64,000 nt of DNA from Brachyhypopomus gauderio. Taxonomy: Eukaryota > Chordata > Actinopteri > Gymnotiformes > Hypopomidae. Location: contig NC_135225.1 in assembly GCF_052324685.1 (NCBI RefSeq), forward strand, positions 10,959,503 to 11,023,502, in the 5' to 3' direction. Below the pieces are notes generated by a model. It searched no databases. It was not told where the DNA came from and saw nothing but the letters and a program-made list of their open reading frames with translations. The position numbers and the translations under genes are program-made. Each line of letters starts with the position of its first letter. Positions within the stretch are counted from its first letter, which is position 1. Shown here one piece after another: positions 2,920-53,252 of this stretch.

Positions 2920-4871
2920 TCATTGAATTTCACGGAGAATTGGGGTTTGCAAATTTGTAAGACACACACATACTTTCAGTATCTTGTTAACATTTTTCCT
3001 GTACTGGTAAGGGATGTGGTCCAAAATGCAAAACAGTTTCAGCCTCTGAATAGACCGCTCCACATGTATCCTTGCACAGGAGATAAGTCTGTTATTGTTT
3101 ACTTCCTCCTGTGTAAACTGTCCGTTGAGCAAGAAAGACGGGGTGTTAAGAAGAACTCCCTCTGGCAAAATGTCCCGAATTGTGAAGCCCTTGTCTGCAA
3201 TAACCAGATCACCTGCTTGTAGATGTTGGAGAAGTCCACTGTCAGCTGTTATTGACTTGTCTGAGGCGCTCCCACCGTACAGGTTACTGGCAAAAGTAAT
3301 CACACCATTGGGAGCCACACCAATTAGAGCCTTTAGCGTGGTCCGTCCTTTGTAGTGGCTGTACAAATGACACTGTGTGTCAAGCCTCTCTGTGTTGGAG
3401 ACAGCAACCTCTGTGCAGTCAAGGACTATTCTACAGTTAGGAAAAGGTCGGAAGCAGTCTGGCAGCGAAGTCTGATTCTTGGCCGTGGAGGGGATGTTTT
3501 CAAGTAGACCGACATACAAAATATCATACAGAGCACAGATGATGGTGGTAAAGATGTTAGTTACAGTTGCTGTGCTACAATTAAACCTTGTTGCAAGGTC
3601 TACATGGCCACAATTCAATTTAAGCTTCATCAAAGTAAGGAGTAACTGATCAATAAGGGGCATAATTTGGACAGTCCAATCAGAATGATACTGTAGCTCA
3701 AATCTAGAAAGAAGTGCTTCCAAAAAAAATACTGTGGCAGCATCAGGTAATCCAGTGTATTATTGGACTTTGTTAGGATGGGAGGAAATCTGACTGAAAG
3801 AAAAGGTTTGCTTTTGTTTCTCCAACTGTTCTTTCAATTTTTTGTTCTCTTCTCTAAGCATGTCATTCTCAACCTCAAGCATGACAAGACTTGGTTGGGA
3901 TGTAGTAGGGGTTTGTGGGGTTGCCATGTCAGCTGTGTGTCCTGTGTCTGTTGCATCATCACTGGAAGGGACAATCTGCTTCTTCTGCTTAGGGGGATTG
4001 CTGGGGTGGTCAGGAAAATGAAAAGCCTTTCCCTGGTTCCAAGCGAATCGCGAAGGTCCAGCAGCTTTGCCATTGGGAAAGTGCCAACTACACACCCTGG
4101 AGTTGCAGTTTGGGGTGAAGTTTTCACGTCTGTAAAAGAAGAAAAAATTATCATTAATCATTAGTCACAGCTTACTTGGGTTCCTCTAACAAAGTGCTAA
4201 AGAAATAAGGACCTTATAAAATTGTGTGTGTATATATATATATATTGCAATAAAATGTGAGAATTATGTATGGTAAGTGTACGGCAGTAATAAACTAATG
4301 GAAACGGGCTAAGCAGTAATGTATATGCATACTGAAAAAGGTAAATATAGGATGCAACAGTAGCATCAGCTGTATTTTTGCTTGGTATTTTTACGGACAC
4401 TCCTGATCAGCTAACCGTTGTGTGTGTATCCATACAATATATCAAGGATATCCAAAAAGATATCCTGGTGTTGCCTTTTACGAGCTAGCTAATCTAGCTA
4501 GTGTTAGCGCCACTAGCTAAGTTAACCAGAGCTATCTTTACTTTAGTTTTACTTTAGCTGGACAACAAATAAAACAAAACAAGAACTAAAATATCTGTAT
4601 GTGGCAAGAAACATTGTATTAAACCCATAGCTAGAATATCAAGCAATCCAAAAAGGGGCAAGTTGGCTTTTTTTTCTCTGTGGGGTTAGCTAGCTAGCAT
4701 TAGCGCCCACGGAGGCACTGTCAAGATTTTTTTTAGAAATAGAACTTACCTTATCAACTGCAACCATTTTCTTCTCTCTTTCTCATTGCAAGGAAAGCGG
4801 TAGAAAGACAAAAGGGTCGTTGTTTTAGACTCGGATCTGTTAAAACAGCAGGGCACACAGCACTGCGGCAT
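2920..4871 (-). pseudogene. ISL2EU THAP-domain DDE transposase with one in-frame stop
   Basis: This is a two-exon model on minus: 4750-4871, starting MPQCCVPCC, and 2920-4129. The donor is GTAAGT and the acceptor TTTTACAG. Together they make 444 codons. Exon 1 and the start of exon 2 form a THAP DNA-binding domain (C-x2-C in CCVPCC, then VCSWHF). A Lys/Glu-rich coiled coil follows (EENKKLKEQLEKQK). The C-terminal half is a DDE_Tnp_4-type catalytic domain with acidic residues in IVLDCTEV, GGSASDKSI and HVERSIQRL. The only visible lesion is a TAA at 3760-3762 (codon 164), just before YTGLP. The frame stays open on both sides of it. The copy is therefore recently inactivated rather than eroded. 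Confidence 0.8.
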
Positions 4872-9860: not shown

Positions 9861-11711
9861 ATGTTGCTGGTCCCTCTGAATGTATGTATTAGCTAGATAC
9901 TCCAAGACTCCAAGAATTACACTCACAAATACTGTATAGCATACATTTTTTATTGATCAACTCATTATTTTAATTTCCAGGTGAAAGTAATATAGAAAAT
10001 GTCTGTTTTGTGTAGTTTGCAAAGTACTTCTAAATATATATTTGAGCTGAGATTATTTAACATTTTAAGATGAAGATCTCATATTAGTGCTAGATTTGAT
10101 GCACTACAGTTGGTAGAAGTCTTTTTTCCTAAGCTGAGACCAGTTATATCCTGTTATGGTATGTTTGATATCAGGTTTTTGTCCCAGGTGTTCTTTTGAC
10201 TACAGTTCCATAAGCACATGTGTAGTCTCACATGGTCACACTGATGGTCACCCCATCATCCAAACCATCCGTGTTAGTCATCTTGCCTGCCCTGTCTCCC
10301 AGTCAGAGGACAGAATGCAGGGTCATTTGTTAAGGGCCTAGTGTTGACTGTAAGAAGAGGAGGGGAGAGAGACCGGGGGGAGATGAGGTGAGGTTGAGAA
10401 AGAGATGAAAGAGAGATTGCATGTCTAACAAACACTTCCATCTACACTTGACATCTACAGTTTCTGCTGTCATGTCCTCTCCTCCCACTAAGGTAGGTGA
10501 ATAATCAGACCCCTACGTCTTTCCTCCGCTACCCTACAGGCATCCATCTCCTGTCTGTGCCTCTCTGCTGTCCAGGGCTGCCCACACTTGCCCCCCCCCC
10601 CCCTCCCTTAGCTCCTCCCCCTCCTCCCCCACTTGGTGGCCATGCATGTTAATGTGGCCCTAGTGTCACTCTTCTCCAGTGTGCACTGGGTGGCATGGTA
10701 GCCCAGCTGAGAAAGCAGGGCAGACGAGAAGACAGGAGAAGAACGGAGGAGAGATGAAATGTGGGGACAAACAGAGCAGGGACAGACAGAGCAGGGACAA
10801 ACAGAGTGAGAAGCCTTCAGTAGGAGAGCAAAGGGATTGAACAGAGATCGTGAAGTGATTTATAGTGAAGATGTAGGGAAGAGTGGACCTTTCTGCCAAG
10901 TTTTCAGGGGATAAATCTTTTTAAACCACGTTGGACATACACTTGAGGGTGTTTGAAGATTGGGGATGGGTGATATTTACTTTGTAAGTCTACTTAAAAA
11001 GTGTGTGGAGTGAGTCTTGTAGGCTGGAAGATTCATAACATGCAGCTCACTCTCAACCTTTAGGCAAGTTTTCCACTTTCTTTTAAACATAATTCTTGGA
11101 AAAACACACTCAAGTATGCACACACAAAAACAGACAAAGACAGACAGACAGACAGACACAGACACGTAAGTATTTGCGTGCCAGATCTCACCATAATGCT
11201 GCCAACTCGGTCAGTGAAGGCGTGGGCATCCAGACTGGGGACATCGTCATCGATGATCTCCATCTTGCGACCCTCGAAATGGCCAACCTCATACACACAG
11301 ACCTTGTTCTTCTCTGCGTCCTGAGGCACACACATCATCAGTATCGATATAATTTGCCGTCAATTCTAAAACTTCCTCAGTAGTTATCCTTCATGGTTTC
11401 ATTTCATATGTGCTCATTCTACTGCTGTGCTCTGCAGTGAACATTTTAGACACACACACGTTATAACTTCGTGAGAGAACACAAAAAAAATAGACTCGCA
11501 GGGGGAAAGATCAGAGAAGGACATTTTTGTTCATATTCATAAATATATTTTGGCTGACAGAAGATTGTGCAATTCGTGACACATTCAGTAGCCAACTATT
11601 AATGAGTTCACAAAAGGGTCACACACAAGCCTGAGTGACAAGGAGGTTAACATGTTTAAAGCCGGATCTGGAGGTGGAAGCAGGACATATCTGACCATAT
11701 CTTCAGACCTG

Positions 11712-12503
11712 CCTGAAGATGGAAATAATAGATTATACCATATGGACAGGCCTGAAGATGGAAATAATAGATTATACCATATGGACAGGCCTGAAGATGG
11801 AAATAATAGATTATACTATATGGACAGGCCTGAAGGTGGAAATAATAGATTATACCATATGGACAGGCATGAAGATGGAAATAATAGATTATACCATATG
11901 GACAGGCCTGAAGATGGAAATAATAGATTATACCATATGGACAGGCCTGAAGATGGAAATAATAGATTATACCATATGGACAGGCCTGAAGATGGAAATA
12001 ATAGATTATACTATATGGACAGGCCTGAAGGTGGAAATAATAGATTATACCATATGGACAGGCATGAAGATGGAAATAATAGATTATACCATATGGACAG
12101 GCCTGAAGATGGAAATAATAGATTATACCATATGGACAGGCATGAAGATGGAAATAATAGATTATACCATATGGACAGGCATGAAGATGGAAATAATAGA
12201 TTATACCATATGGACAGGCATGAAGATGGAAATAATAGATTATACCATATGGACAGGCCTGAAGATGGAAATAATAGATTATACCATATGGACAGGCATG
12301 AAGATGGAAATAATAGATTATACCATATGGACAGGCCTGAAGATGGAAATAATAGATTATACTATATGGACAGGCCTGAAGATGGAAATAATAGATTATA
12401 CCATATGGACAGGCCTGAAGATAGAAATAATAGATTATACTATATGGACAGACCTGAAGATGGAAATAATAGATTATACCATATGGACAGGCCAACCCAG
12501 GAG
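11712..12503. repeat. 39-bp minisatellite, 20 units plus part of a 21st
   Basis: The 39-bp unit begins CCTGAAGATGGAAATAATAG and ends ATTATACCATATGGACAGG. Because 39 is a multiple of three, frames stay open across the array. Variants (CATGAAG, GGTGG, TACTATATGG) show that units 1-5 and 6-10 carry the same pattern, i.e. a 195-bp higher-order duplication. On minus each unit carries TTCAGGCCTGTCCATATG followed by GTATAA, like the end of a crystallin Greek-key exon (FRPVHM) and its donor. Degenerate units continue at 13,052-13,145 next to the real crystallin exon. Confidence 0.9.
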
Positions 12504-12508
12504 ATTAT

Positions 12509-13051
12509 TGCAATGTGTTGACAAGGTAGGCTGGACACACATGTAGGAGAATATGTGTTTAATAATAAGAACAGAAAGGAGACAACAATGCTGATATCAA
12601 AGAAAGTAACATCAAACCAAACTAAGGATAAAACAGCCACAACTACCAAACCACACAGAGACACAAGAGTAGAGAGATATCTGGAAATGCAAACATGGAG
12701 AGATGTAACAAACACGCAGCTAAACATAAGACCTAACTAAATGAGGAAAGAGTGACTAACACAGAGCTAGGATCCATAAGCAGGATTATAGAGGAATAGC
12801 AAAGAATAACAGAAGAACAAACTCACAACGAGCATATACAATAATTGACAAACAGGACTGGCAAACACAGGGCTTAAATACACAGGACTGACTGAGGAAC
12901 CAAACAAGACACAGCTGAAAACAATAATCAAAGGCGGGGACACAGGAAACAGGGGCGTGGAAACACAAGCGAAACCAAGGAAACCAAAATCAAAGGCGGA
13001 ACTAAAGCACATGATACAAGACAGGGGTGGAGGGCGGAGCCATACATGACA
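12509..13051. mobile_element. Probable solo LTR inserted in the minisatellite, TSD ATTAT
   Basis: A 543-bp segment begins TG and ends CA on both strands (minus: TGTCATGTATGG ... CACATTGCA). It is flanked by identical pentamers ATTAT at 12,504-12,508 and 13,052-13,056. A 5-bp duplication and TG...CA ends are typical of LTR retroelements. The minisatellite sequence resumes immediately after the right duplication. No internal coding region is present. The retroelement family is not identified. Confidence 0.6.
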
Positions 13052-13262
13052 ATTATACTATACGGACCGGCCTCAAGCTTGAACCAAGAGATTATATCAT
13101 ATTGACAGGCCTGAAGATGGAAACAGATTATACAGTCTGGACAGGTATGAAGAAGAGCAGATATTCATTCCTCTGGCAGTCCCTGTGAGGGTATTCATCT
13201 TTCTCCAGGATGTACACCTCACCAGGGAAGTTCCTTTGCTCAAAACCAACAAAATTACAGGG

Positions 13263-16548
<3,286 letters not shown>

Positions 16549-18427
16549 TGATCAATAGAGGTAGCCCCTACAGAGGCAGGCTGGGTTATTGATCCACTGG
16601 GGTAGCCCCTACAGAGGCAGGCTGGGTTATTGATCAACTGGGGTAGTCCCTACAGAGGCAGGCTGGGTTATTGATCCACTGGGGTAGCCCCTACAGAGGC
16701 AGGCTGGGTTATTGATCAACTGGGGTAGCCCCTACAGAGGCAGGCTGGGTTATTGATCAACTGGGGTAGCCCTTACAGAGGCAGGCTGGGTTATTGATCA
16801 ACTGGGGTAGTCCCTACAGAGGCAGGCTGGGTTATTGATCCACTGGGGTAGCCCCTACAGAGGCAGGCTGGGTTATTGATCCACTGGGGTAGCCCCTACA
16901 GAGGCAGGCTGGTTTATTGATCAACTGGGGTAGTCCCTACAGAGGCAGGCTGGGTTATTGATCCACTGGGGTAGCCCCTACAGAGGCAGGCTGGGTTATT
17001 GATCAACTGGGGTAGCCCCTACAGAGGCAGGCTGGGTTATTGATCAACTGGGGTAGCCCTTACAGAGGCAGGCTGGGTTATTGATCAACTGGGGTAGCCC
17101 CTACAGAGGCAGGCTGGGTTATTGATCAACTGGGGTAGCCCTTACAGAGGCAGGCTGGGTTATTGATCCACTGGGGTAGCCCCTACAGAGGCAGGCTGGG
17201 TTATTGATCCACTGGGGTAGCCCCTACAGAGGCAGGCTGGGTTATTGATCAACTGGGGTAGCCCCTACAGAGGCAGGCTGGGTTATTGATCAACTGGGGT
17301 AGCCCTTACAGAGGCAGGCTGGGTTATTGATCCACTAGGGTAGTCCCTACAGAGGCAGGCTGGGTTATTGATCCACTGGGGTAGTCCTTACAGAGGCAGG
17401 CTGGGTTATTGATCCACTGGGGTAGTCCCTACAGAGGCAGGCTGGGTTATTGATCCACTGGGGTAGCCCCTACAGAGGCAGGCTGGGTTATTGATCCACT
17501 GGGGTAGTCCCTACAGAGGCAGGCTGAGTTATTGATCCACTGGGGTAGCCCCTACAGAGGCAGGCTGGGTTATTGATCCACTAGGGTAGTCCCTACAGAG
17601 GCAGGCTGGGTTATTGATCCACTGGGGTAGTCCCTACAGAGGCAGGCTGGGTTATTGATCCACTGGGGTAGTCCCTACACAGGCAGGCTGGGTTATTGAT
17701 CCACTGGGGTAGTCCTTACAGAGGCAGGCTGGGTTATTGATCCACTGGGGTAGTCCCTACAGAGGCAGGCTGGGTTATTGATCCACTGGGGTAGTCCCTA
17801 CAGAGGCAGGCTGGGTTATTGATCCACTGGGGTAGTCCTTACAGAGGCAGGCTGGGTTATTGATCCACTGGGGTAGTCCCTACAGAGGCAGGCTGGGTTA
17901 TTGATCCACTGGGGTAGCCCCTACAGAGGCAGGCTGGGTTATTGATCCACTGGGGTAGTCCCTACAGAGGCAGGCTGAGTTATTGATCCACTGGGGTAGT
18001 CCTTACAGAGGCAGGCTGGGTTATTGATCCACTAGGGTAGTCCCTACAGAGGCAGGCTGGGTTATTGATCCACTGGGGTAGTCCCTACAGAGGCAGGCTG
18101 GGTTATTGATCCACTGGGGTAGTCCTTACAGAGGCAGGCTGGGTTATTGATCCACTGGGGTAGTCCCTACACAGGCAGGCTGGGTTATTGATCCACTGGG
18201 GTAGTCCTTACAGAGGCAGGCTGGGTTATTGATCCACTGGGGTAGTCCCTACAGAGGCAGGCTGGGTTATTGATCCACTGGGGTAGTCCCTACAGAGGCA
18301 GGCTGGGTTATTGATCCACTGGGGTAGTCCCTACAGAGGCAGGCTGGGTTATTGATCCACTGGGGTAGTCCCTACAGAGGCAGGCTGGGTTATTGATCCA
18401 CTGGGGTAGTCCCTACAGAGGCAGGTT
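16549..18427. repeat. 41-bp minisatellite, about 46 copies
   Basis: The unit is 41 bases (TGATCCACTGGGGTAGTCCC followed by TACAGAGGCAGGCTGGGTTAT). Diagnostic variants are TGATCAACT versus TGATCCACT, and GTAGCCCC, GTAGCCCT, GTAGTCCC or GTAGTCCT. The TGATCAACT variant occurs only in the left third (about 16,600-17,310). The right part is uniform TGATCCACT and mostly GTAGTCCC. There are no spacers between units. The array lies between the two crystallin relics. Confidence 0.95.
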
Positions 18428-18794
18428 TGGTTGGCATGTGGAAAGAATAAATGTTCTGTGCCCCATCCACAGTGCTGTGGGTGTATTTGTGTTTGAACAA
18501 GGAAGGTTTCACAACCTCAGTCTACAGAGAAGGTTTTTCAGTAATGCAAAGGTAAAGCTGTAGGCGTAAATGGCTATATTTACAGAAGTGATACCTTAAA
18601 AAAACGTAACATAAATGTAACATCTAGACGACCATTTTTTAATCTTTAATCTTTGAATGTATCAACATAGCTTCGCCTTTATAATGAAATAGAGAGATGG
18701 TATGACTGGTTTCAATAATTGTTAGATATTCAATTTAACGACTCAAGACCTCACTGTAATTCTACTGAGCTTCTAAATCTTTCTATCTTTTTCT

Positions 18795-20566: not shown

Positions 20567-22113
20567 TCACATGGCCGGGTCATATGCCTCTCTGTGTCCT
20601 GCCTGCTCATAGGCTGTATCATCTCGCCGCCTCCGCCGTCGCCCTCTAGCTCCGCCTCTCTCTGACCCTGACGAATCAGAGTCCTGGGAGTTGGAATCCA
20701 GCTGCACCCTCTCTTCCTCACTCTGCCCGCCCTCTTCATCCTCATCCTCCACATCGCTCTTGTCTGACTCGCACTCGTCAGAGTTTTCCTCCTCCAGGTA
20801 CCGGTAACCTTTGACCTACATGGAAAGAGATGATACAGAAAGATGGTTCTGTGAGTGAAAGGTGAAGTTCTTACTAGTCTGAAGAACAAGAACTGAAATA
20901 CATGACTAAAATCATCATGGTGCAAAACTGGTCATTTGTTCACGCCAATACACTGAACGTGAAGCCATATAACTTGCCTGCTCTACTGATGGCTCAAAAC
21001 ACCGTATTTACCCAAATCATGTAATTTCTTAAATGGGAACATTCATTAAAGAAATGTTAATTGTGTCATCGTGAGCTGAAAGTAAGAACACACAACACAA
21101 CCTACACAGCTCTGTGGTAAATAACAGGTGGACAGCTGACTCACCTTGTGTCGTGGACGGGGAATCCGTGGCAACCTGAAACGGATTTTCTTGGCTAGAC
21201 GACGTTCCATCTGCCAATAACAGAAGCCTGCAACCAGCAGAGTAACCAATAGGATTGCAAGCTTGGCCTGAAGTAGAAGAAAATGTTGAGAGAAAAAGGG
21301 AGAGAGAATAAAAGACAACAAAAAGGTGATAGTCTCAGATTGATTGTCTTTTCAATATGTTCAAATCATAAAAGTTTATTGATTAAAAAAACAGCGCCAA
21401 GGTTTCTCAGCTAAATCTAAAGAGCACGCTATTGATCAGTCGAGACTTGTGATTGGACGGCTGAGGTTCCTAATACTCTGCTCATTATTCACTCTCCTTC
21501 AATAATCCCTGTGTTACAATAGACACAAACTGGTGCAAAACCTGTTGCAGCTTGTTTCAAACCTGCATACCTGCCGGCATACTAGTTTAACAAAACATGG
21601 AACAAAGACACACGCACAAACAAACTGCTTTACCCTCATAGGCAGGCTAGACCAGAGGTAGACAATAAAAATTGCGATAGCCTGCCACCAGTGGTAGATG
21701 GTGTAGACGAAGTCCAAGCGCTCTTTGTCCTCGTAAAGCATGCCCAGCAGAGCTGCACAGAGGGACATGTACAGAACATCACTCTCCCTCAGAAGCCAGA
21801 GCAGGGCTACTGTACATGCTCCAAACAGAAAGAAATAAAGCAATGGCATCCATGATGTTATTAAGTTTGGACTAGGTTTTGCTTTTTGGTTCATTGTTTT
21901 ACACCTGTAGATGATGATGATGATGATGATGTAGATGTATGTGTGTGTGTGTGTATGTGTATGTATGTGTGTGTGTGTGTCTGTATGTGTGTGGTGGTGT
22001 GTGTGTGTGTGTCTGTATGTGTGTGGTGTGGTGTGTGTGTGTGTGTGTGTGTCTGTATGTGTGTGGTGTGGGGTGTGTGTGTGTGGTGTGGTCTGTGTGG
22101 TGTGTGTGTGTGT

Positions 22114-22144
<31 letters not shown>

Positions 22145-23959
22145 CGGTGTGGAGTGTGTGTGTGTGTGTGTGCGTGCGCGCCCCACTCACTGCTCAGGCT
22201 GGTCTTGTTCAGAGCAGTGCCCAGGCCCCACAGAGCCACCAGCACCAGCAGCTGAGGCAGCTGCTCGGGTTTCCTGGGAGTGGAGGACCAGCACATGAGA
22301 ACCACGAGCAGCACCAGGTGCACGGCTGCCCCCCCCAGGAGCAGGGCCTGACGGGGCAGACGCTGCAGCAGCAGGGCCAGAGAGAGGGCTGAGCACGCGG
22401 AGGACGACAGGCCGTACACCATCACCAGCAGCCACAGGTTCTCCAGCCCCGCCGCACACACGCCATACGACTGGAGGGAGAAGGGAGAGAAAAGAGGAGG
22501 GGATTTGAGATGCAAGGACTTGGAGCTCTCTGGGTTACTCTCAGTGATTTCATCCATCGAGGGGGTGAGAGGTACATAGAGCAGGAAGCTCCCAGGAGAT
22601 GCAACTGTCCAGCTTCCATCTCCTTACATGGTGCTCAAGGCATGAAATGTTTAACATTTCAAAAAGCCTTTTTTTTCAAATATATAAACACATATAGAAA
22701 TACATGGGTCATGTAAACAAAGTCGCTGTCAACATAAAGATGTGGCTTTATGTGCTAAAAAAAGCAACCGTAATTCATTGAGCCTACGAGGCTGACCTCA
22801 CACCTGGGATGTATTCATTTACTCCTGCCACAGCTATTATAGAATCTGAGACGTCTCCCACTCTTGTGATTGAAGCCGCGAGTTGCACCCACGAGGCAGC
22901 GGGGAGGAAAGGCGTCCGCTGCTTACCAGTACAAGACCCTTGATGGCGAAGAGCACTTCAAAGCCCGAGTAGATGAAGAAGGGGCAGAGCAGACGCAGGC
23001 GGTAGTCACGCAGGTGCTTGAAGGGCAGCTGGAAGATGTTGCCCCAGCCGATGCTGCGCAGGTCGATCTCCTCCGTGGGCCGGTACGCCGCGCCACACAA
23101 GGCCAGGAACTGTGAGAGAAGCCCTGGGTTACTACCACCTCCCACTGGGTCCCACACCGCACCGAGGAGACTCCCAACGGCCGCACCACAGCTTCGGGCT
23201 TCGTTATTACAAACGACCCGGTGCGTTCGGAGCCGATGGTGGAGCGGAGAGAGAAAAGGGGAGAGTGAAAGCAGGTCCAAATGTGAGGAGAACGGAGGCT
23301 CACTACGATCATGGCGATGAAGGCAGCTCCCATTAGAACACTCTCCACCTCAATGAGGAGCATGGAGCGAGGTAAGTGGTGCAGTACGGTCTTGTTGAAG
23401 CCCTCGATCACGCCCTTCCCATCCGCACCTGGGGGGGGGAGAGGGGCAAGAGGGTGGGGGGTATGATACATATAGGCTGGATGGTCCAGCTATAAAAATA
23501 GAAACAGGAAGCAGAAAAGCGGAGTTTACCACATAGCTTGACGTTGAACAGAGTGTGATTGTAGTTACTCAGAAAACTGTTGAGGAAGAGAACCATGGGA
23601 AACTCTGCAAACACGAAACTAAGCTGAAAACATAGAAATAAACAGATAGAAAGACGATTATGGATGTGAGAGTAACGCAGGAAAAGGGCAGGGCTCAAGC
23701 ACCTGTGTGTGTGTGTATCATACATCAACACCCCCCCACTCCCCCACACACACACACACACACGCACACACACTCACCAAGTGCAAACCAATTACCAACG
23801 CCTATAAAAATAGACAAATGTTCTCACATGGAAGCAGATGTAGAAAACGGACTGGAAGATGATGATGTAACGATGGAATGCGCCCTTCGGCACTTTCTTC
23901 TGCTCCTGAACATGCTCCTCCTTATAGTTGACATACTCGTAGTACTGCTGGGCCATCCT

Positions 23960-29280: not shown

Positions 29281-32200
29281 TCAATCAGTCTCCTCTCCAG
29301 TCACATCAACCTCTTCATCTTCCTCTTCCAAGTCCTCCCCTGCGTCCTCATCCAGAATGGTGAGGAGTTGCCTCATCGATAAATGTGGCAGAACACCAGG
29401 AGAGCCCCAGACATCGTCCACAACTACTTCCTCGTCTTCATCGCAGTCCCAGTTGTCTGTGGACTCAAAGTTCACTCTAGCTGAAGGCACTGATGAAGGA
29501 CCCATAGCATTCCCCAGGGGGTTGATTACATCGGTCTCCTCAGACTCAGGAAGAACTTCTTTGCTTATTCTTGATGGTGTCTGTGTTACAGCTTTAACAG
29601 ATAAAACAAACCAGAAAATCAATATTATATATAGATTAGATAATGAACAATAATGCATTCAAAATAAACTAATTTGCTAATTGGCTGAACAGTGAAATCA
29701 TGCAAGAAACATTGGAAATCATGCAAGAAACATTTTAAACTGTCAAACTGTACAGAAACGTTTTGAAATGTTACAGTTCACAATATGTAACTAGATGCAT
29801 GAAAGTTTCACTGTTTAACGCTAGCCTTAGAAAAAATGAAAGTAAGGTCCTGATTAAATAAACAAATCTTCTCCCCATTAATTGTGCATGTGCTTAAAGT
29901 TGGCTATAAGCATACATGTAGACAGCATTCTCTGCAGCACTGGCTCTGACTAATAGCCTATACAGGGCAAGTGTGTTTAGTTCCCACTCAGTGTATGCTT
30001 TAGCTATGAGTGTAAATACTGTTCAGACAGAACTATAAACACTATCAATGCCTTTAGTCATAAGCAGGTCATACAGTGGAGATGCAGAGAAATTAGACTG
30101 CCAACATGGTAAAATCAACTTCAAAATAAAAATGAATTCTTGTCATGTCTGTTAGGTAAACCAAAAAAGTAGACATTCCTAATGTCATGTGCATCACGTT
30201 TCCCTAATTTATTAATGCTTAAATGTGTATTTCCAGTTAGGCAAACCTAATTTGGGCGTTTCACTTGGCCAAACAAATGTATTAAAAAAATACTTCATAG
30301 TGGAAAAATATACCATTACCTTCATCTGATGAAATGATTTCAGCTTCAGGAAACTGCGGTTCCTTTAAATTGTCCTCCTCAGCAGTAGCCCGTCCCTCTG
30401 TTATCGTTGCACTAGGGTGGCTTCCATCCATGCCAGTCTTCTCATCGCTCCATTCAGGATTATCTGCCCTATCTCCATCTGTAGTAACCAGAGTCTCTTC
30501 TACCACTTCCACATCACCATCACTTGTCTTGGCCCCATATTCAAAATCTCCAGTATTGTCCGATACTGCCTTTATTGATTCACTACAACCTGAAGTCTGC
30601 ATTTCCCAAAAGCTTTCTGAAATTTGTTCAGCTTTTAAAGCATTTTTAGCGCCTAATCTTGATTTCTCAATTGTCACATTATTTGTAATATCTTCAGACC
30701 TAAAAGGATGTTCGGTAATTTTACTACTTTCACTTTGAGTGGCACGAATATTGTTACATGTGTTTATAAACGGAACAGAACAGAAGTCAGAACCAAGTTC
30801 ATTATTCAGATCAATGTCGTGACTAGACAAATAAGGAAGAATGGAATTAATGCCAACATCTGTCTTTTTATCTGCTTGGATTCTACCAGTGTCTGTCACA
30901 CAGTTTCCATCAATTAAGCATCCATTTTTGCACTTGTATGAACTTTGCATCTCTTCACTGTCCCCACTGTTGACCGTGCCGTTTTCCAAGTCTGTCTTTT
31001 TGTTTTTACTTGTGTACAGAACGTCCTCCAGTTCACCATCTACTACCATCCTGGTCTGTTCTTTACCACCCTCTTCCACCCTTCTCTCTACTGTATTCTC
31101 CCCAGCTGCCCATTTCTCTTCCTGTTCGTCAATGCCCATCACCAGCTTGCTTCTTTTTGCAAGGCTCCGTACTCTAAATTCTCTCAAGTTCTTAGGGGTG
31201 AGTCCTGGTGGTGAAAGATTGGTGCAGCATTTTATTTCAGTCGTCTTAGAATTCTCTGCGCTCTGAAAACTGGACCTTGCTCGCAGGCCCATTGGCAGGA
31301 AACATTTTTTCTCAGTCATTCCTTTAGAATAAACGGCCTGGTGGAAAATATGATCAACAATGCTTGGCCGTTTATTTTGGCTAGCATGTCGAATGGCTTG
31401 TTTGGTTGTCTCAGCGTTCATATCAGTGTTTACTTCCCCATGCCCTGTTGAGACATTATTGAGCTGTGGTTCTAGTGCTGTACTGTCTTTACACTCATTT
31501 TTCACCAGGCTTTTTGCCTTGGGCAAACCATGGCGCTTAGCAAATCCTTCAGACAACCCAGCTATAGCCTGCTTTTTGCTTTCAGATTGTAGAAGACCCA
31601 AATCATGTTTCCCTTTTTTACGGGCCTTTCCACGTGCACGTTTTACTACAGTTCGTTTCTTATCCTTCTCCAGATGTCCTTCATTCTGTACAGACTCAGG
31701 GATTTTGCTCCTTTGTGTAGACTGTAAGTTATAATGGTCAGCAGAGCTGAAATCATCAAAACCTGCAGACAAGTTATTCAATTTCCTTACCTTGCTTAAG
31801 TTTTGCACAAAACCTGCAGCACAATCTGCTTTTTTACGGGGCCTCCCATGCCCACGTTTTACTACAAGAGTAGGTTCTTTCAGATCAGTCCCTTGTCTAG
31901 ATACACTTTGTTTTCTGCACTTAAGAGGTCGGCTTGTTTTGCATGGAGTTTTATCTCCTAAGGATGTCGAATTAGTTGGCACTCTTTTGATTGTCTTGCC
32001 AGACCTCAGCCAATCCATTTCCTCAGTACAAGTCTTACCAGTCTGCTTTGTGGTGTCAATGCTTGCCCCATTCCCTTCATTCACACTGCAAGGTTTGACC
32101 ATTTGTACATCTACTCCATTTGATTTAAAAGCAGTGATCTTGGTCCTTTTCTTGTCTTGTTCATTAGCCATTGCCTCAACACTGCATCTTTTCGTACAGG

Positions 32201-35200
32201 TCCTCTTGATGCACGAGGCCTTATCTGTTGGTCTGTCTGTCTTGCTTTTCTCCACTGTTCTTGGTGATGTCCGAGTCTCAAGGCACCAGCTTTGTGTAGT
32301 TACCAGCCCTAATCTGTTGTTAGTGGCCTTTTCAAAGTAATCCTTATTTGGTCTGAATTTACTTGAACGTTTCCTTAGCACCATCCCCTGACTTGACAAG
32401 GAAGCACAATTGTTTTGCTTTACATACAGAGGAGTATGTGATGGATTCAGCTGGTCAGCTTTACCACAAAATGTCTGCGGCAGGGGTAAAGAAACCATCA
32501 ATAGTGGTTGGTGGTCAACAGGTGATGCAGACAGCCATGAAGACATTTCCAATGGGTTTAGAGTACCAGACTCTTGCTTTTCTGATGCAAGGGGTGAAAG
32601 GCATCTTGGGAGTCTCATCTCATTGAAATTGGCCCCATTATCAGAATTTGGGGCTTCCACAATGGCTGTTTGCTTAAACCATGTTGCGTGCTTCATTGCT
32701 ATCGAGTTGGCCATGTCTCTTTTGGCTTCGGTGACTACATTTACTTTGTCTAATGAATGTTGTGCTAGACCGCTTGTGGTCACCTTTGAAATGTGCACAT
32801 CGCCACGACGTCCTTCACTGGTATTACAAAGAGCTTGTTTCATTGATTGAACATAGTTATTTGTCCATAAATTATTGTCCAACACATTCTTCAACTCACC
32901 TACATTTTGGTGTGGCAGCCAGACATTTTCAGTACAAACAGGAAGGGTGAATGCTGGGACTTTTTCTGATACAGTGTACAGAAATGCAGATGATGAATGA
33001 GACTCTTTTTGTGGTGCAACATGCAGAGACTCAACAAATGATGCTGAATGACTTCCTACTGATGCCATATTCTTGAGCTCCACTGTCCTGCATCTGGACT
33101 GGCACTCTAAATTTGGACCTGCAGAACCTACACACAACAAAGCATGATCAAAGCATGATATTTATCAATACCCATACACATGTTTATGCTTCTCATAAAT
33201 AATACACAACATATTCCTAACATGACATGTCTTGAGGCCAGGAAAGAGCAAAATGTGCAGATGAAAATAATAGATACTTGGGAGAGAAAATAACTGTTCA
33301 CTTAAATAAAAACGATTAAAGTGTTGACGAATCATATTCAGTAACTATTCACTGTATTACCATCGTTTCATTTTAAAAAGTTTTAAAACTTACTGAAAAT
33401 AAGCAACTGCTCATTCATTTCTTATAGCAACTATTTTTGGTAAATTTTTTATAATTATTTCTGGGGAAAGAAAATTATATGCATCATTTTGTAATTTAGG
33501 AAGAATGCTCAGATGTAAACAGTGCAATTGTTTATACTTTTCTGGAAAGTAAATCAAGCAAACAAACCTGAACAACACTTGTACAAGTAGGACATTTACC
33601 TGCTGCTTGTTGTCGAGAGGAAACCGACGTCATCTTGCCAGTGTAACGTTCACTAGCTTCAATGTTATGGCTGTCATTATTAGCTGGGGCAGCTTCACAC
33701 TGATCCATTTTTGGATCCAGGTGTGAACATAGCTGGGTTAAATGATGTATGCCGTTTCCATCCGTTGATTCTGAGGGCAAGATGTTTATACCCATCATAA
33801 CCATATCCTCCAGCAGCCTTACAATATGCTCATCAGACTCCTCAGCCTGTGGCAGACCTTCTGGTGCTGGCTGCATTTGTAAAGGAGAGGAGAGAAGAAC
33901 AGGATCATGGGTAGGGAGATGAGGCTTTTCTGAACTGGCTCTGGCAGGGGTTGCAGGAGATGATGTGTTCATGTCTGAAGGGGGTGTGAGTGTAACAGTT
34001 CCAAGGCTCCGACACAGCAGTGCTGGAGAATGGTCCATCTGAAGTCCAAGGCTGGTCATCTGGTTCTGTATGAATGTAGTGAGACAAGAGGGGGGAGGGC
34101 ACGTCATGAATCAGCAGCAGATTTAATAAAAAACATTTAAATGCAATTAAATGTAAGATGGCTACCAACATGTATAAATTATTTTCTAAATACAACTTAT
34201 CCTCTGAAAAGGAAGTACCTCAAAGTCACAATACATAATTCCTGGACCAGCATGACAGAGCTTTGAAGCAGCTGATCTACTCACTATTGTTTCATCTGCT
34301 TGGCTCTCATTGTGGATGCTAACAATCTCCCACAATGCCTCTCTGCTTCTCCTCTTCAGTTTAATCTTCAGTGAAATCCGAGTCTCTCCAGATTGTTCAA
34401 AAGCAGAGCTATTTTGGAGACCAAGCTTCTCAATTAGCTTGTGGAAGTCTTTACCCCCAATTCTTTTTGTTCTCTCCAAGGTCCCAGGATTCAGAGGTTC
34501 AGATCCAGTTTGCTTAACATTCAAAAACTCTATTTGTTTTTGTTCCTGACCTTCTTTGCTTAACTGGTCTGTCTTCTTAGGATTTTTGCCTCTATTCACT
34601 TCCATCTGCTGGCAGCACTTCAAGTGAGCAGGAGCCAGTGCTTCACTAAGGCTGGAGCACGAGGCAGCAGCAGTGTCATTTAACAAGTCAACACCAGCAA
34701 GTGGAGAAATGGTGCTGTCCTCACTAGACATGAAAGCTAAAGCAGGAGACCTGACTGTAGACAGTCCAGACTCCAACACACAGCAAGCATCTGTAAAAAT
34801 ACCTTCAGGACTATCTGTCTGAGTCCCTGCATGTGTAAAGCTCTGGCCCTCTGTCAGGACCAGTGGCGCTTCCCTTTCCTCTTCTGTCTGCAGACCAATT
34901 TCCCTCCAACTCGTAGCTTTGTCCTGATGCCCATTTGCATGTTTTTTCTTCCCACCTAACAGATTACTGAAGCCAAGTCTGTGGGCAACATCAAACACCT
35001 CCTTCTGTTCACCAAGACTCTCTCCTTCTATCTCCCCAGAGTACATGAACCCAACTAGCTTGAGAAGGGCATTAGCCCCTATTGCATGAAGCTTGACCAG
35101 TCTGCTCTGCCCCACTGGAAGTGAAGGAGAGTTGGCGAGGACTCTTGAAAAAACTGGGCTGAGGGCAGACAACACACAGCTATGTGCAGGAATGGAGACA

Positions 35201-35699
35201 CCTAGGAGAGTAAGAGTATAATAATTTTGCATTATAGAAGCTTTAAGCAACCCTTTTACGGCACACAGAAATGACCCAAGTTAAACACAAAATGGTAAAA
35301 CTTGCCTTAAGCTTACATATACTTCACAAATACTGCAACAAAATTAAATAAATGATCTTTAGCCCCATTAAAATGTATCATTAAAAAATTATATTCTTAA
35401 GAGGTTAGAAATTGCAAATAAAAGCAGAGTGGTGCTGGCTTCTATTACTTTTTACTTTTCCACATTAATGTAATAAATAGATAAAGCTGAAGGAGTAATT
35501 TAATCCACTTATATGGTTCAGTGAGAAATATTTAGGGAGTTCAACAGCAACCACAGAACAGGCCTGGCAGGAGTATTTCTTTCCCTTCTCTCTCACCCTC
35601 GGCCTGCAGCAGTGTGTCACAGTGGAGGCTGCCATGCTGCTGTTTCTGTAGTTCACGGAGGAGGAGCAGAGCAAAGCCAGGGTGCCTGTGTCTCCACAT
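29281..35699 (-). CDS. btbd18: BTBD18-like BTB/POZ nuclear protein with AT-hook-like motifs
   Basis: Five exons on minus: 35597-35699, 34219-35201, 33600-34065, 30320-33127, 29281-29591. They total 4,671 nt and 1,556 aa. The N-terminal BTB/POZ domain spans about residues 15-110 (LHCDTLLQAEGVSIPAHS, then CVLSALSPVFSRVLA and LVGFMYSGEIE). The rest is low-complexity and Ser/Thr/Lys-rich. It has an AT-hook-like core GRPRKK at about residue 945 and a related basic block KRARGKARKK at about 1015. The C-terminus is very acidic (EDLEEEDEEVDVTGE). Mammalian BTBD18 is about half this length and in mouse promotes transcription elongation at pachytene piRNA loci. The name rests on the BTB sequence and on synteny with timm10 and ctnnd1. 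All junctions are GT-AG and in phase. The start codon lies in a short first exon. Confidence 0.85.

Positions 35700-41050: not shown

Positions 41051-53252
<12,202 letters not shown>

Follow-up and report, generated by a model that had tools for sequence, protein, structure and literature searches.

In a gene copy of the betaB-crystallin family in Brachyhypopomus gauderio, a 39-bp minisatellite was found in which each unit joins the coding end of exon 4 to the start of the following intron, and this minisatellite was very probably born by tandem duplication across that exon-intron boundary. The window analysed here, that is, the whole stretch of 64,000 nucleotides of contig NC_135225.1 (positions 10,959,503 to 11,023,502), contains the array in the register of the exon end from which its exon part can be recognised, a duplicated block of variant units within the array, an element inserted into it, and a host gene in decay. 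The features are collected in Table 1, with positions counted along the window.

Table 1. Crystallin exons, repeat units and inserted element, ordered from the upstream to the downstream end of the gene copy
Feature	Positions	Strand	Remarks
Possible exon 3, 3' half	13401-13457	minus	score 35.0; reached by 0/60 shuffles and 1/200 dinucleotide shuffles
Exon 4 relic, betaB-crystallin gene	13134-13253 plus one base	minus	open; 12-bp in-frame deletion; acceptor AG changed to AA
Unit 0, outermost copy at the seed position	13116-13151	minus	last 18 exon 4 bases (13134-13151) and first 18 intron bases
Degraded unit 1	13077-13115	minus	7/39 bases off consensus; exon frame FRPVNM; AT replaces the donor GT
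Degraded unit 2, cut by the insert	13052-13076	minus	4/25 bases off consensus
Solo-LTR-like insert	12509-13051	minus	543 bp; TG...CA ends; ATAAT target-site duplication
Unit 2, shortened remainder beyond the target-site duplication	12498-12503	minus	flanks joined
39-bp tandem array	12497-11718	minus	20 unbroken units; consensus TTCAGGCCTGTCCATATG (exon part) followed by GTATAATCTATTATTTCCATC
Partial unit TTCAGGC	11711-11717	minus	exon-distal array edge
Exon 5	11178-11320	minus	143 bp; open; acceptor CAG present; donor GT changed to GC
Exon 6 relic with deletions	10639-10703	minus	score reached by 0/200 shuffles and 0/500 dinucleotide shuffles

The array was delimited by TRF as a 39-bp unit present in 20.1 copies (11711-12493), with 96% matches and no indels, and it is thus a minisatellite in the usual sense of many head-to-tail copies of a unit of 10-100 bp. 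When the 27-base core of the unit was searched for with up to 3 mismatches, 20 matches were obtained (19 in the array and one in degraded unit 1); the mean over 100 shuffles was 0. Nine of the 20 units are identical to the consensus. In another six, AGG is replaced by ATG (two of these also show CATC changed to CACC), three carry ATA in place of ATG, and the two edge units diverge further from the consensus. A series of variants (5T38C, 18A, consensus, consensus) is seen twice with a spacing of 195 bp, and several units were thus duplicated at once.

An earlier note on this DNA, the sequence-only reading, had described about 20 copies between 11712 and 13145, each consisting of the coding end followed by GTATAA. 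The copy number was borne out, with 20 tandem units plus the degraded ones. For its part, the GT at the donor position is present in 20 of 20 tandem units, as well as in units 0 and 2 (unit 1 has AT), but the exact string TTCAGGCCTGTCCATATG plus GTATAA occurs in only the nine consensus units; FRPVHM followed by GT is likewise read in the exon frame in 9 of the 20. The array in the proposed span is real, but 543 bp of that span (12509-13051) belong to an inserted element and not to the repeat.

Beyond the partial unit at the exon-distal edge, a further degraded unit was considered and rejected, given that the similarity score of the region 11630-11710 was matched by 1416 of 5000 shuffles and that the unit profile gave no hit in 11560-11717. 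A search of the genome with a dimer of the unit yielded at least 11 matches, a lower bound because only the best candidates were scored, and all 11 lay inside this array; among these scored matches, there was no copy of the unit at any other locus and hence no second array. Viral contigs gave no exact match to a 22-mer of the unit, and no earlier report of the array was found by title or abstract opening in the literature searched. The window also holds a bigger minisatellite, with a 41-bp unit in 45.7 copies (16560-18432, 96% matches), and a 30-bp tandem array of 11.8 copies (51162-51516, 99% matches), several of the six frames of whose unit contain stops.

On the exon side, three degraded units together span 13151-13052 (minus strand), and the outermost of them, unit 0, includes the end of exon 4 itself. 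A profile made from 18 clean units was run against the window with the remaining array masked, and the top match was unit 0 (E 4.3e-4, covering profile positions 1-39), the runner-up having an E value of 0.37. Units 0 and 1 taken together matched a dimer profile at E 9e-14. With respect to the unit, unit 0 differs at 5 of the 18 exon bases, and its intron part has a gap of 3 bases.

The exon was identified by its translation, which matched betaB1 among PDB sequences (E 2.5e-6); joined in frame to exon 5, it aligned with betaB3, betaB2 and betaB1 (six sequences, E 9e-25 to 3e-22) with a 4-residue gap. The sequence-only reading had placed a betaB exon at 13,145-13,262, directly abutted by the array, whose degraded end was said to align with the unit base by base. 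The betaB identity was confirmed, although the exon has the limits given in Table 1 and sits in a decayed gene copy. The array overlaps the exon rather than abutting it, and an alignment of its exon-side end to the end of the exon was indeed obtained, but with the five differences and the gap mentioned above.

The local exon 4 ends in FIPVQT, whereas the interior units keep the family residues R and M. Replacement of FIPVQT with FRPVHM in the joined translation increased the scores of all seven chains. Thus, betaB3 rose from 89.8 to 94.7 bits, betaB1 from 82.2 to 88.1 bits, and four betaB2 sequences from 81.7-82.5 to 85.0-85.8 bits (a gain of 3.2 to 5.9 bits for these six betaB chains), while a circularly permuted betaB2 chain rose from 68.8 to 70.6 bits. 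Hence, an older state of the exon end is better preserved in the array than in the exon itself.

The rest of the genome offered paralogues for comparison. A DNA search of the 797-Mb assembly with exon 4 gave a single other match at an E value of 0.001 or lower, in the locus C11 (73%, E 7.5e-12), where exons 3 to 6 are open, AG and GT are found where expected, and a second crystallin gene lies nearby. A protein search of the genome resulted in 42 matches at an E value of 1e-5 or lower (75 of 75 candidates scored), and four of the loci concerned were read (C11, C29, C16 and C18); the gene in C11 was assessed by the splice sites of exons 3 to 6, and those in C29 and C16 by exon matches and the exon 4 donor. 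Exon 4 ends in FRPVRM before GTGCGG in C11, in FRPIRM before GTAAGA in C29 and in LRPVRM before GTGGGT in C16. In fixed register, the 18 exon bases of the unit agree with these exon ends at 14, 13 and 13 positions, respectively, whereas its 21 intron bases agree with the three intron starts at 5, 7 and 3 positions, the introns of the paralogues having diverged. The lack of a paralogue match for the intron half is as expected for introns, and confirmation of that half would be limited to this locus. A scan for [FL]RP[VI]RM followed by GT found one further chance place in the C16 locus (9/18) and none in C18.

The unit is therefore homologous to an exon end in the register of the exon, and the proposal that its exon part is a typical betaB exon end agrees with the [FL]RP[VI]RM and GT of the three paralogues. 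The derivation of the unit from the 3' end of the exon plus its donor is supported by the same exon ends and by the score gains obtained with FRPVHM. Exon ends unlike the unit, which the sequence-only reading had expected in relatives if it were wrong, were looked for in paralogues of the same genome, not in orthologues, and did not appear.

The gene copy that hosts the array is, as judged by its splice sites and missing exons, a relic. A functional betaB-crystallin gene would have all its exons open and working splice sites, which is not the case here. The acceptor of exon 4 reads CTGTAA, compared to GTGCAG in C11, and the donor of exon 5 is GC, compared to GT in C11. The exon 6 fragment gave E values of only 0.58-2.4 with human probes. 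The possible exon 3 precedes GTGAGT, which stands where C11 has GTAAGT; the exon was not detected with human probes or by eye in the frames of the window and was revealed only by the C11 exon. The search for coding exons with those of C11 did not reveal the first of them (the score of the C11 exon was reached by 7 of 60 shuffles). In C11, the 12 bases missing from exon 4 (13134-13253) are bounded by two ACTGC words, a pattern such as a slippage deletion leaves.

Compared to C11, exon 5 shows mostly silent differences (NG86 dN 0.14, dS 1.96), and exon 4 gave a dN of 0.19 and a dS of 0.72 by the same method. Since exons 4 and 5 are open and the differences in exon 5 fall on silent sites, the copy was under selection for a long time and decayed late. 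Stop codons accordingly play no part in the case for the death of the gene, which is built on the lost splice sites and on missing exons.

The insert separates the array of 20 units from the degraded exon-side units, having landed within unit 2, and is flanked by the two copies of the 5-bp duplication ATAAT (13052-13056 and 12504-12508). Its family is dispersed, with at least 44 matching genome pieces when the best 40 of 217 candidates were scored, a figure that includes the insert itself and some pieces from one place. The TG...CA ends, the 5-bp duplication and the dispersed copies are those of a solo LTR, and the term LTR is used by these marks only. The sequence-only reading made no mention of this 543-bp element. 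Elsewhere in the window, the open reading frame at 2923-3759 (minus strand) encodes a transposase, its domains being DDE_Tnp_4 (E 4e-41) and HTH_Tnp_4, and long open frames of 959 and 364 amino acids lie at 30285-35280 (minus strand), the shorter one with a BTB domain (E 2.6e-8). The open frame at 21517-22623 (minus strand), built around a CA repeat, presumably corresponds to UNC93B1 exons. A Zip transporter was considered at the same place and rejected, as the Pfam match reached 25.9 bits, below the cutoff of 35.1, and its His-Thr run resembles a translated CA repeat; the match probably arose as an artefact from this His-Thr stretch.

Use of the repeated splice signals in a gene with continuing expression, either as donors or through one 13-base micro-exon per unit, with length-variable transcripts as in IFI6, would be in agreement with the GT kept in every tandem unit and with the open exons 4 and 5. 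It would also be in agreement with an acceptor-like site in the unit, TTATTTCCATCTTCAG before G, which was overlooked in the sequence-only reading and which lies at the 99.6th percentile of the AGs of the window, scoring higher than the repeated donor (this and the following splice-site scores were obtained with general splice-site frequencies). The repeated donor itself, however, is predicted to be weak. Its score is -1.89, compared to 1.70, 4.75 and 3.68 for the donors of C11, C29 and C16, and drops to -5.23 in the ATA variant; among the GTs of the window, the two stand at the 75th and 45th percentiles, respectively. Each tandem unit bears a GT, as in IFI6, but one below all three paralogues in donor strength. 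Furthermore, the crystallin frame meets GTA TAA directly past the exon part of each unit, exon 4 has lost its acceptor and exon 5 its donor, and only a fragment of exon 6 is left. On balance, such use of the array appears very unlikely, and there would be just a slim chance that its acceptor-donor pairs are still recognised in lens transcripts, where they might form a splice-site sink or a 13-base micro-exon varying in number between individuals.

Less probable still is an unrelated intronic minisatellite that reached the exon by chance, FRPVHM and the adjoining GT being a coincidence. The exon part of unit 0, taken alone, makes a modest match to the unit (13/18, a local score equalled by 21 of 5000 shuffles), and agreements of 13 or 14 out of 18 are not rare when the register is left free: among 9883 18-mers of the C11 locus compared with any rotation of the unit, 38 reached at least 13 and 11 reached 14. 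The strength of the evidence therefore lies in the fixed register. With it, 13/18 was reached at 6 of 53,672 places on both strands of the four loci, three of the six being the paralogue exon ends, and the register, the six codons and the GT all agree with three paralogues. Only 1 of 20,000 shuffled units scored like FRPVHM before a GT. Of the 94,416 stop-free hexapeptides in the window, 12 scored like FRPVHM, corresponding to nine tandem units, unit 1 and two places elsewhere, neither of which is followed by GT; similarly, none of the 7737 places preceding a GT outside the array carried a hexapeptide scoring as high against three betaB ends. That unit 0 is the top match in the window outside the masked array also speaks against chance. 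The least probable alternative is that the array was seeded not by the present exon end but by a duplicate of it that had arisen earlier at another place in the intron, for example through a tandem exon duplication. It would account for a repeated part that comprises only a fragment of the boundary and for the 5 of 18 bases at which the present exon end is off the unit, but units 0 and 1 follow each other head to tail and without a gap, which makes the present exon end the simplest seed.

The origin that we favour, a tandem duplication across the boundary of exon 4 and intron 4, would have proceeded as follows. The final 18 coding bases of exon 4 and the first 21 bases of the intron, 39 bases in all, would have served as the seed and been tandemly duplicated, probably through a short direct repeat that allowed slippage or unequal repair. 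The presence of TTCAGGC both at the start of the unit and at the far edge of the array fits slippage and is equally in accordance with an ordinary partial last unit. Growth to about 23 units within intron 4 would then have taken place by multi-unit duplication, with the flanking units drifting while the interior ones stayed alike, and the element would have been inserted into unit 2 after the amplification. We infer that the exon end decayed only after the duplication, as the R and M codons lost from the local exon are still present in the interior units. At present, the array is probably neutral and free of function.

The origin of many minisatellites is not traceable. In this case, the seed is still in place, its coding half can be checked against paralogues of the same genome, and the succession of duplication, amplification, arrival of the inserted element and gene decay is partly readable. 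The array is a clean natural case for modelling how minisatellites arise and how tandem duplication crosses exon-intron boundaries.

Human IFI6 (6-16, G1P3) has a minisatellite with a repeat unit shorter than 39 bp. Its units reportedly supply splice donor sites, as Turri et al. are said to have described in 1995. According to the portion available of PMC4526556, two downstream repeat units serve as donors in the expressed gene, and the portion available of PMC3618361 cites Turri et al. Both systems have minisatellite units bearing a GT at the donor position. However, IFI6 is, in that same portion, an expressed gene whose donors are used, whereas the array described here, read from sequence alone, lies in a relic copy with a donor that appears weak; unlike in IFI6, the exon half of its unit is recognisably coding. 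Splicing of the array, if it occurred after all, would make it a counterpart of IFI6 in fish.

Related cases and background are described in the parts available of several reports. In human segmental duplicates, variable internal tandem repeats include minisatellite units averaging 30 bp, some of them at exon-intron boundaries, and can alter splicing (excerpt of PMC2812944); these repeats have about 4 units on average and lie in transcribed genes, whereas the present array has 20 to 23 units and is known only at the DNA level. A potato intron was created by tandem duplication across a boundary (excerpt of PMC4974935). It resembles the present case in that the duplication spans the boundary and carries splice signals, but there a single duplication led to a spliced intron, as far as the excerpt goes, and here the result is an amplified array in a relic. 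Among fish, intron repeats of about 150 bp in sea bream myostatin-2 are reported, with mention of growth-hormone intron minisatellites (excerpt of PMC3045353), and zebrafish crystallin genes are treated in the excerpt of PMC11979377; repeats in earthworm metallothionein are the subject of that of PMC12783039. The array thus joins the known cases of repeats at exon-intron boundaries, among which it stands out by its copy number and by a seed that can still be checked.
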